7,020 nt of DNA, taken from NCBI GenBank assembly GCA_029932675.1, contig JAOZPP010000097.1:1-7020 (forward strand), read 5' to 3'. A program made the translations under genes and the position numbers. Source of the stretch: a bacterium (GTDB lineage Bacteria; SM23-81; DAOVCL01). How positions within the stretch are numbered: position 1 is the stretch's first letter; the number at the start of each line of letters is the position of its first letter. The notes under the pieces are model-generated. The model saw nothing but the letters and a program-made list of their open reading frames with translations, searched no databases and was not told where the DNA came from. Below are positions 3,967 through 6,728 of the stretch, piece after piece.

Positions 3967-4032
3967 TAAAAAATGGTGGTTTTGTGATAGATTGTAACAA
4001 TTCGATGTAGTTGAAATTAGGAGGTGGTAACT

Positions 4033-4239
4033 GTGGTCTATAGAGTTATTATTGAAAAAGGCGAAGATTTTGGTTATGTGATGCACTGTCCAGCACTCCC
4101 TGGTTGTCATTCGCAAGGAAATACTATTGAAGAAGCAATAGAGAACATTAAGGACGCGATAAGGGGATGCCTCTCGGTGTTGGACGAAGAGGTCACCGAA
4201 TCTGCCAAAGAACTCGGCGTTATGGAAATAGAGGTTTAA
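4033..4239 (+). CDS. hicB: HicB-family antitoxin (short form)
   Basis: Antitoxin of a type II toxin-antitoxin pair; it should bind and neutralise the HicA mRNA interferase in the cytoplasm. The 68-residue product has the partial RNase H-like HicB fold: an N-terminal strand (VYRVIIEKG), the conserved GYVMHCPALPGCHSQGNT (14-31), then the helix IEEAIENIKDAIRGCL. It ends soon after this domain, so the C-terminal ribbon-helix-helix or HTH DNA-binding domain of longer HicB proteins is absent. The start is the GTG at 4033 because AGGAGG (4019-4024) sits 8 nt upstream. A GTG at 4024 in the same frame overlaps that Shine-Dalgarno and is unlikely. The stop is followed directly by hicA, so the pair is co-transcribed. 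The antitoxin-first order is common in hicBA loci. Confidence 0.88.
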   Translation: MVYRVIIEKGEDFGYVMHCPALPGCHSQGNTIEEAIENIKDAIRGCLSVLDEEVTESAKELGVMEIEV

Positions 4240-4242
4240 TTG

Positions 4243-4470
4243 GTGAAATTACCGGTAATCTCTGGGAAAGAGGCAATCCGCGCCTTTGAGAAGGCGGGTT
4301 GGTACATTGACCGTCGAGCAAGAAGTAGACACATAATCATGAAAAAACCAGGTATGAAGACTACTTTATCTATCCCTGAACATAAGATACTTGATAGGGG
4401 ACTTCTGCGAGCTTTGATAAGGGATGCGTATATCTCAATTGATGAGTTTAACGAATTATTGAGGAAATAA
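4243..4470 (+). CDS. hicA: HicA-family mRNA interferase toxin
   Basis: Small dsRBD-fold toxin of about 75 residues, expected to cleave mRNA when free of HicB. The frame shows the family order: KLPVISGKEAIRAFEKAGW (2-20), the catalytic-histidine region RRARSRHIIM (24-33, H30), LSIPEH (42-47), then RGLLRALIRDAYISIDEF. The usual G-S-H triplet reads S-R-H here; the histidine is kept but the serine before it is arginine. Start choice: GAGGT (4231-4235) lies 7 nt before the GTG at 4243. A TTG at 4240 is directly in front, would add one residue, and abuts the hicB stop. Either start implies translational coupling. The C-terminus is complete. Confidence 0.88.
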   Translation: MKLPVISGKEAIRAFEKAGWYIDRRARSRHIIMKKPGMKTTLSIPEHKILDRGLLRALIRDAYISIDEFNELLRK

Positions 4471-4943: not shown

Positions 4944-6191
4944 TTATACAACCCACCAGGCTGGCAGGAGGCTTCTGCGACCTTCCTGGATGAATTCCCC
5001 AGCGTGCACCACATACCCACGCTCTACCCCGTATCGTTGCATAAACGATCCCAGCGCACGGGAATGCCCGGCCCTCCACTTTACCTCTATGGGGAATAGC
5101 CTGGTGGCCCGCTCTAAGACAAAATCTACCTCAGCTCCATTCTGTGTCCTCCAGAAGTGTAGCCGGTCCAATTCCCCCATACGTTTCACAAAACCTGTAT
5201 ACACCAAATTCTCCAACAGTTTCCCTATATCTCCTCTTAACTCCGACTGTGCCAGATCCCCAAGGAGATAGTTACGAATTCCATTGTCCAGAAAGTACAC
5301 CTTGGGCGACTTGGTTACTTCCTTCCTCCGATTGGTGAAATACGGAGGGAGCAGCGAAAGGATAAACGTACTCTCCAAAATTGAAAGGTACCTCGAGGTG
5401 GTATGGCGAGCGATACCCACTGCATTGGCGATGTTGGAGATGTTCAAGAGATTTCCTATCTGAGCCGCAAGCACACTAAGCAGTCGGTTGAACTTAGAGA
5501 TGTCCTCTAACTGGAAAAGGCTGCTCACATCCCGGTATACATAGGTGCTTACAATTTCTCCCAAGAACTTGGACTTTCTCTCCACCTCGTCCTCTAACAC
5601 CACCCGAGGGTAACCACCGAATACAAGAAACTCCAGGAAGTAGCGCCGATAGTCCCGCTGATAGAACCGACCCTCATCAGCCGTACCTGCGAAAGCATTC
5701 TCAGGCAGAAGAGCCGACAGTTGGGCTTCCTCCTTAAACACCAGCACTTCCCGAAAGTCCAGGGGATACAGATGGAAGACGATCTTTCGTCCCACCAGTG
5801 AATCCCGAAATTTCATCTTAATACTCAGTGCCGAAGACCCGGTAACGATCAACTTCACTTCATCGCTATGGTGGTCTACCATCAATTTGATGAACTTAGA
5901 GGGGTCCCGAAGATACTGGATTTCATCGAGCAAAACGATATTGCGCCGCTTGCGATCTGCCCCTTCTGTCCTGATGAATTGCAGGAAATCATCTACACCC
6001 TCATCCAACACCTCTAAGACCCGGGTTTCCTCTAAGTCATAGTAAAACACCGGGGCGTGCGATTTCAGATCCTCCATCAACAACTTCAGCAGCGATGTTT
6101 TTCCCACCTGTCGGGAGCCGAGGACGACTAGAGCTTCTCTATCATCTATATATTTCAGAACGTGTCGACGAATTCGGCGGTCATAGAGCAT
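4944..6191 (-). CDS. AAA_14/DUF4143 family ATPase
   Basis: A 415-residue cytosolic ATP-binding protein of unknown physiological role. The N-terminal AAA_14 domain has Walker A GSRQVGKTS (25-33, K31), Walker B IVLLDEIQ (85-92, D89/E90) and a sensor-like KLIVTGSSAL (from 113). A middle segment with NLLNISNIANAVGIARHTTS looks like a winged helix. The DUF4143 C-terminal domain ends with EVDFV (354-358) and PIEVKW (367-372), which resembles the E/D...ExK core of PD-(D/E)XK nucleases; nuclease activity is not established for the family. The start is the ATG at 6191, with AGGAGG 5 nt upstream. An in-frame GTG at 6242 adds 17 residues but lies inside the promoter spacer, upstream of the expected transcript start, so it is rejected. 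The gene is intact and monocistronic. Relatives are typical accessory genes, often in many paralogous copies; defence or toxin-like roles are conjecture. Confidence 0.9.
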   Translation of the reverse strand: MLYDRRIRRHVLKYIDDREALVVLGSRQVGKTSLLKLLMEDLKSHAPVFYYDLEETRVLEVLDEGVDDFLQFIRTEGADRKRRNIVLLDEIQYLRDPSKFIKLMVDHHSDEVKLIVTGSSALSIKMKFRDSLVGRKIVFHLYPLDFREVLVFKEEAQLSALLPENAFAGTADEGRFYQRDYRRYFLEFLVFGGYPRVVLEDEVERKSKFLGEIVSTYVYRDVSSLFQLEDISKFNRLLSVLAAQIGNLLNISNIANAVGIARHTTSRYLSILESTFILSLLPPYFTNRRKEVTKSPKVYFLDNGIRNYLLGDLAQSELRGDIGKLLENLVYTGFVKRMGELDRLHFWRTQNGAEVDFVLERATRLFPIEVKWRAGHSRALGSFMQRYGVERGYVVHAGEFIQEGRRSLLPAWWVV

Positions 6192-6196
6192 AGTTC

Positions 6197-6202
6197 CCTC
6201 CT
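6197..6202 (-). promoter_or_regulatory. Ribosome binding site of the DUF4143 ATPase
   Basis: A consensus AGGAGG on the - strand lies 5 nt before the ATG at 6191. It decides this start over the upstream in-frame GTG. Confidence 0.75.
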
Positions 6203-6226: not shown

Positions 6227-6255
6227 AAGATACAAATAACACGGTTATTTGTCAA
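6227..6255 (-). promoter_or_regulatory. Sigma70-like promoter of the DUF4143 ATPase
   Basis: On the - strand, a perfect -35 TTGACA (6250-6255), a 17-nt spacer and a -10 TATCTT (6227-6232, 4/6). The predicted transcript start is near 6220, giving a leader of about 29 nt that contains the ribosome binding site. Confidence 0.7.
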
Positions 6256-6273
6256 CGATGTTTTGCAAATAAC
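6232..6273. promoter_or_regulatory. Operator-like inverted repeat within the ATPase promoter plus a third half-site
   Basis: ACAAATAAC (6232-6240) and GTTATTTGT (6244-6252) form a perfect 9-bp inverted repeat with a 3-nt centre ACG. It covers the promoter spacer and the edges of both boxes. A third half-site CAAATAAC occurs at 6266-6273, just upstream of the -35. A dimeric repressor bound here would block RNA polymerase. No regulator gene is adjacent; the ATPase itself, through its winged-helix-like segment, is one speculative candidate. Confidence 0.6.
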
Positions 6274-6583
6274 TTGGAATTATAGGAAATTCCTTTTGGG
6301 GACGCAGATAAACCCAGCTTGTCAAGATCTTAACTTTCTGCGGTTATCGGCGGTAACTATACCAAGGGGAGGGATCTACCTAATTTAACTTATTCATAAA
6401 TCCTCGAGAGCTTTATGTAAGCTCCTGTCACCATGAAAGCATAGGATTTGCATTTTTTCTCTTTGTTAATCAAAGAATTACAAGAGGGTTAGGGTTGCTG
6501 AGCCCAAATTCCTCATGCCGCAGACTTTAATCTGCTTTCTATCGTAACCTCCGAGGATACCGCTATCGTTGGAGGATATAGTA

Positions 6584-6607
6584 CCCTCTCCCTCCAAAGG
6601 GAGAGGG
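6584..6607. repeat. Perfect 10-bp hairpin of the CCCTCTCCCT type
   Basis: CCCTCTCCCT (6584-6593), loop CCAA, and AGGGAGAGGG (6598-6607) form a perfect stem, followed by ACAGGGTGAGGGG. I recognise this as a common dispersed palindrome in bacterial intergenic DNA, from memory and without a search. Confidence 0.65.
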
Positions 6608-6609
6608 AC

Positions 6610-6675
6610 AGGGTGAGGGGGAAATAGATGAGATCTTCACCCTCTCCTTAGTTCTCCCCCCTCAAGGGGGAAGAA
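6610..6675. repeat. Two further palindromes continuing the CCCTCTCC repeat
   Basis: AGGGTGA (6610-6616) pairs with TCACCCT (6637-6643). Next, TCCCCC (around 6655-6660) pairs with GGGGGA (6666-6671) around a short loop, and TTC/GAA can extend the stem with a bulge. With the preceding hairpin this makes a compact array of about 90 nt that may be one composite repeat unit. Confidence 0.5.
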
Positions 6676-6728
6676 ACCTGAATTGTTCATAAAACTTGCA
6701 CGTAGCTGCAAACTACCAATAGCTGAGT

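Follow-up and report, generated by a model that had tools for sequence, protein, structure and literature searches.

A conserved inverted repeat over the promoter of an AAA_14-DUF4143 ATPase gene and its probable role as an autoregulatory operator

The ATPase gene and the dyad at its promoter

The window (i.e., the entire 7,020-nucleotide stretch of DNA analyzed) carries on its minus strand a gene for an AAA_14-DUF4143 ATPase, the promoter of which is occupied by an inverted repeat, or dyad (Table 1). The gene starts with the ATG at positions 6191-6189, and GGAGGG is found just upstream. A longer ORF beginning with GTG was rejected as an unlikely gene start; this ORF crosses the promoter. The encoded protein matched the Pfam domains PF13173 (1.7e-28) and PF13635 (1.7e-46), both above the cut-off, and its residues 1-400 matched the PADLOC profile PDC-S01 (E = 7.2e-94). 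By these matches, it is a member of PDC-S01 and a candidate for single-gene phage defense with a putative anti-phage role. PDC-S01, in which an ATPase is fused to a PD-(D/E)XK domain, is described as the fourth most common defense across prokaryotes, its counted copies number in the tens of thousands, and experimental validation is pending for most candidates of this type (PMC12988326). Sequence searches of PDB and NCBIfam returned no relative, and a Pfam scan found no WYL domain in the window protein.

Alignment of 20 relatives revealed that the Walker A residues G25, R27, Q28, G30, and K31 were invariant, as was E90 of the acidic Walker B motif (LLDE). In the PD-(D/E)XK-like motif, D356 was invariant and E369 and K371 were at least 90% conserved. 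The initial annotation had noted a winged-helix-like segment in the protein, which the AlphaFold model (mean pLDDT of 86.6) supports with predicted helices at residues 231-243, 251-258, and 262-274 and a strand at residues 278-281. Structural alignments to 2qen and 2fna, which extended over residues 1-311, also included the predicted winged helix. In the structural ranking, PABY2304 and Sso1545 were the nearest (Z of 17), followed by the NLR/CED-4 STAND proteins, and Orc1/Cdc6 was among the matches. In many STAND proteins, such as CED-4 and plant NLRs, the winged helix regulates the ATPase rather than reading DNA. Because the winged helix of a STAND protein need not bind DNA, the modeled fold permits, but does not prove, DNA binding by the window ATPase.

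Table 1. Positions of the ATPase gene, its protein motifs, and its promoter elements in the window.
Feature	Position	Strand	Basis or remark
Gene for 415-aa AAA_14-DUF4143 ATPase (PADLOC PDC-S01)	4944..6191	minus	Pfam, PADLOC
Walker A GSRQVGKTS, residues 25-33	6093..6119	minus	alignment of 20 relatives
PD-(D/E)XK-like motif D356...E369-x-K371	5079..5126	minus	alignment of 20 relatives
Winged helix (predicted), residues 231-281, putative DNA-binding region	5349..5501	minus	AlphaFold
Dyad, proposed operator, 21 bp, ACAAATAAC-N3-GTTATTTGT	6232..6252		exact in sequence
Third half-site CAAATAAC (GTTATTTG on minus strand)	6266..6273		upstream of -35
-35 hexamer TTGACA	6250..6255	minus	promoter scan; conserved in L035 and L036
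-10 hexamer TATCTT	6227..6232	minus	promoter scan; TATATT in L035 and L036
Ribosome-binding site GGAGGG	6196..6201	minus	read from sequence

Elsewhere in the window, genes for a HicB-like antitoxin and, directly following it, a HicA toxin are found at positions 4024-4470 of the plus strand, and the intergenic region at positions 6570-6680 contains inverted sequences (CCCTCTCCCTCCAAAGGGAGAGGG and similar) that are possibly a dispersed repeat.

The two 9-bp arms reported in the initial annotation, ACAAATAAC at positions 6232-6240 and GTTATTTGT at positions 6244-6252, and the octamer said to recur at positions 6266-6273 are all exact in the sequence. On the minus strand the dyad reads ACAAATAAC-CGT-GTTATTTGT. 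The centers of the half-sites are 11 bp apart within the dyad and 22 bp apart from the dyad to the third half-site, which are about one and two helical turns, respectively. The promoter, TTGACA-17 nt-TATCTT, matched the consensus at 10 of 12 positions in the promoter scan. As had been claimed, the dyad fills the entire 17-bp spacer; it does not, however, lie strictly between the hexamers, as it overlaps the final three bases of the -35 and the first base of the -10.

The dyad of the window gene is a single-copy sequence in the 3.03-Mb genome, with up to 2 mismatches allowed. Three copies of CAAATAAC are present in 7 kb, compared to 0.30 expected (0/200 shuffles), and the dyad pattern with up to 3 mismatches, which was picked post hoc, is expected 0.02 times by chance. 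An unbiased search for the best palindrome in the 110 bp upstream of the gene gave p values of 0.010 to 0.027 against dinucleotide shuffles, and the two versions of this test agreed. Taken alone, the repeat in the window is therefore modest evidence; it is the conservation and the family-wide test that make the case convincing. A plasmid similarity search with the window promoter yielded no match. When 60 genomes were searched for the literal dyad, the single match outside its own genome, with 1 mismatch, was in G008 and is probably a chance occurrence.

Conservation of the dyad in orthologues and occurrence in the family

A scan of a genome collection identified two orthologues from Latescibacterota, L035 and L036, whose proteins were 87 and 86% identical to that of the window. 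The 26-bp promoter/operator sequence TTGACAAATAACCGTGTTATTTGTAT is identical in both at all 26 positions, compared to only 83-85% identity of the coding DNA, while the DNA further upstream is unrelated to the window and the alignment breaks down there. The repeat is thus kept upstream of the orthologues, so that the test proposed to refute the operator claim does not refute it, and the repressor-operator geometry suggested for the window is supported. The third half-site is kept in L036 (GGTTATTTGT) and degenerate in L035 (GGTTATTCAT). L035 and L036 have xylose-isomerase-like and URO-D genes as common neighbors, which are absent from the window. Given the shared operator and the different gene neighbors, the gene and its operator therefore moved together. 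It should be noted that L035 and L036 are 95% identical and lie at the same locus, so the window operator has one independent comparison, as these two are near-duplicates. In each of the three genomes, the dyad is present once, at the ATPase gene, as would suit a regulator devoted to this gene better than one governing a regulon.

To extend the comparison to the family, 110 bp upstream of each of 127 distinct AAA_14-DUF4143 genes, collected from the 60 genomes and the genome-collection scan, were analyzed. Dyads with p<=0.05 against shuffles preceded 62 of these genes (49%) vs. 17 of 137 neighboring genes (12%; Fisher 9e-11). The rule used to call start codons was simpler for the control genes than for the DUF4143 genes, and the figure for neighbors may be somewhat lowered by this. 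At p<=0.01, the proportions were 28 and 5%, respectively. Upstream of purA, which served as another control, palindromes with p<=0.05 were found in 8 of 28 cases (29%), above the level of neighboring genes, and the difference between 49% and 29% is by itself not decisive. Because a number of the palindromes at purA resemble terminators, the comparison was rerun with AT-rich arms only, a filter that was set after the purA result was seen: such dyads occurred within 80 bp in 42% of DUF4143 genes, 4% of neighbors, and 11% of purA genes.

The sequences of the dyads vary among paralogues and are conserved within subfamilies. The second DUF4143 gene of the window's own genome, for example, has a different dyad, CCTTTAAATTTAGTCAGACTAAAATTAAAGG. 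The suggestion that the literal half-site CAAATAAC would recur at paralogous genes did not hold for distant paralogues, as each subfamily has a sequence of its own. About half of the family is without a significant dyad, including several of the closest relatives, L005, L006, L181, and L182 (40-46% identity). Across the whole family, a -10 located directly after the right arm was not specific (27/55 vs. 26/62 at offset -8). A phylum search around G032 returned too few genomes. In L005, the promoter of the DUF4143 gene is covered by a tandem direct repeat (ACTTAATTTTTTTGATATAATTGTAT, twice) in place of a dyad. In the sister family DUF234 (ATPase_2-type; loci L194-L208), significant upstream dyads were found in 9 of 14 genes, a small sample, hinting that the scheme may reach beyond DUF4143.

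In one subfamily, four genes with 52-71% mutual identity had 37-bp dyads at the same place. After a search of 386 genomes with P0001, one of the four, 30 loci of 45-60% identity to P0001 were retrieved, among which the discovery genes L143, L153, L158, and L164 were included and the other 26 were new; 28 of the 30 carry nnnTGAAAnnnnnn-N9-nnnnnnTTTCAnnn or a close match. Across these operators, 82.9% of the cells were paired, compared to 67.6% after shuffling, and double changes between the arms numbered 67 vs. 26 in shuffles. Outside the anchoring core, pairing was found at 182 of 252 positions vs. 110 expected (z = 11). While the shuffles ignore the relatedness of the sequences, the slid registers correct for it and agree, with pairing of at most 55%. 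The arms of the 37-bp operator thus covary, as a binding site for a symmetric dimer would be expected to do. In 22 of 28 loci, 11-15 nt separate the end of the operator from the start codon, and in 15 of 26 a match to the -10 immediately follows the right arm; the signal for a -35 at any single position was weak in this subfamily (at most 5/28 per position). No family of neighboring ORFs was common to more than two of the loci, and nothing other than the gene itself was found to accompany the 37-bp operator throughout. In 26 of the genomes of the subfamily, sites with up to 2 mismatches were mostly at DUF4143 genes; those in G349, G045, and G361 that were not resemble chance occurrences, and G282 has another three.

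In two of the G282 sites (L188:1547-1583 and L189:1562-1598), a DUF4143 remnant lacking the 5' part directly abuts an operator-like palindrome of 37 bp. The homology begins at residue ~273 in L188 and at residue ~208 in L189, and its start coincides with the right arm or falls inside it. The operator may have been a deletion or recombination endpoint in these remnants. The third site (L190:1495-1531) is a perfect operator-like palindrome, CCTTGAAATTCCCGC-N7-GCGGGAATTTCAAGG, near which no DUF4143 gene was detected.

Candidate readers of the proposed operator

Given these observations, the dyad of the window is very probably a real operator. Since such operators accompany one gene in many different genomes without a shared neighbor and differ between paralogues, self-regulation is the simplest reading, and the ATPase probably regulates its own gene through the dyad. 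The gene combines a conserved dyad over its own promoter with a predicted DNA-binding domain in its product. Although the identity of the binder is inferred, autoregulation fits better than control by a distant regulator.

A real operator could also be read by a separate trans-acting repressor, for example a small dimer of the TetR, MarR, or WYL type whose gene lies elsewhere. Dyads in promoter spacers are classic sites for such proteins, and BrxR, a winged-helix/WYL regulator, controls defense islands via inverted repeats (PMC9122601). There is, however, only one site per genome, the operators accompany the gene across genomes without a shared neighbor, and the operators of paralogues differ, so that a different distant regulator would be required for every one of them. 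Such a repressor is unlikely. HicAB was considered as the source of a regulator and rejected; the HicAB region is without the half-site and nothing points to it.

Another role for the dyad, in which it would not control transcription but would be recognized or cleaved by the ATPase-nuclease or belong to a mobile unit, is very improbable. The PD-(D/E)XK motif of the protein and the G282 palindromes, two of them abutting DUF4143 remnants and the third without such a gene detected, would be in keeping with such a role, but a fixed spacing to the -10 and the start codon and a filled -35/-10 spacer are what a transcription operator predicts, and a bare recombination site would not require such placement in a promoter. 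Finally, although the window dyad alone reaches only p = 0.01-0.03 and purA controls have palindromes too, several of them terminator-like, the probability that it is a palindrome arising by chance in an AT-rich promoter, or that it serves an upstream gene as an RNA hairpin or terminator, is very low in view of its conservation in L035 and L036, the enrichment in the family over neighbors with composition controlled, the covariation of arms in the 37-bp subfamily, and its location upstream of the expected transcript start without a T tail.

Proposed autoregulation and its implications for PDC-S01

For autoregulation by the ATPase, we propose the following model. The AAA_14-DUF4143 protein, which would be built of a STAND-like ATPase domain, a winged helix, and a PD-(D/E)XK nuclease-like domain, would bind the dyad as a dimer or larger oligomer through the predicted winged helix, and probably also the third half-site, at a distance of one or two helical turns. 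Repression is proposed because the operator sits over the promoter: the bound ATPase would cover the -35/-10 spacer and exclude RNA polymerase. Negative autoregulation would then keep the level of the ATPase low until binding is relieved, perhaps via the nucleotide state or phage infection.

Several known systems share parts of this proposal. BrxR is likewise a winged-helix protein with inverted repeats at its own promoter in a defense context, and 193 of 347 BrxR homologues (56%) were found to be preceded by inverted repeats (PMC9122601), which is similar to the 49% of DUF4143 genes in this study, although the criteria differ. BrxR is, however, encoded by a separate WYL-domain regulator gene, whereas the regulator proposed here is the defense ATPase itself. 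IniR of mycobacteria is also a transcription-regulating ATPase, with an ATPase domain predicted to be Sso1545-like, but it has 818 aa, a separate C-terminal DNA-binding domain, and a MalT-like sensor domain, and it controls iniBAC (PMC5760070).

Among proteins of known structure, the archaeal ATPases Sso1545 (2fna) and PABY2304 (2qen) share with the window ATPase the fold of the ATPase and winged-helix parts (Z of 17.1 and 17.4, 264-265 aligned residues, and rmsd of 3.8-3.9), but only 17-19% sequence identity, and we know of no operator role for either. Orc1/Cdc6 on origin DNA (2qby and 2v1u) combines an ATPase with a DNA-reading winged helix. The matches to it were weaker (Z of 12.7 and 11.4, with a high rmsd of 8.7-10.4), and these proteins are replication initiators without a nuclease domain.

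Our search covered the open-access literature and revealed no description of operators or of autoregulation in PDC-S01. The PDC-S01 papers found deal with abundance and evolution, and the string "autoregul" is absent from PMC12988326. DUF4143 is named in one open-access paper, where an ATPase gene of Thermus with HTH motifs appears among tabulated expression changes. Within this scope, the novelty of the finding is provisional.

A more far-reaching reading, which we regard as quite unlikely, is that the operator would serve the ATPase-nuclease as a sensor and as a place of rest, where the protein would be inactive and self-repressed, and that infection would free the nuclease and derepress the gene, with paralogues insulated by private operators and DUF234 proteins behaving likewise. 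If this reading were true, the paralogues in one genome would be insulated single-gene defense modules.

Few candidate defense systems are as abundant as PDC-S01, and no mechanism for it was found in the literature searched. Predicting the binding sequence gene by gene provides a direct biochemical handle, as it names the DNA to test. The operators suggest that PDC-S01 proteins act on DNA as dimers or oligomers, and they offer a way to recognize true start sites and functional copies. An operator carried by the gene itself would also explain how a single-gene nuclease spreads between distant hosts with its own control.
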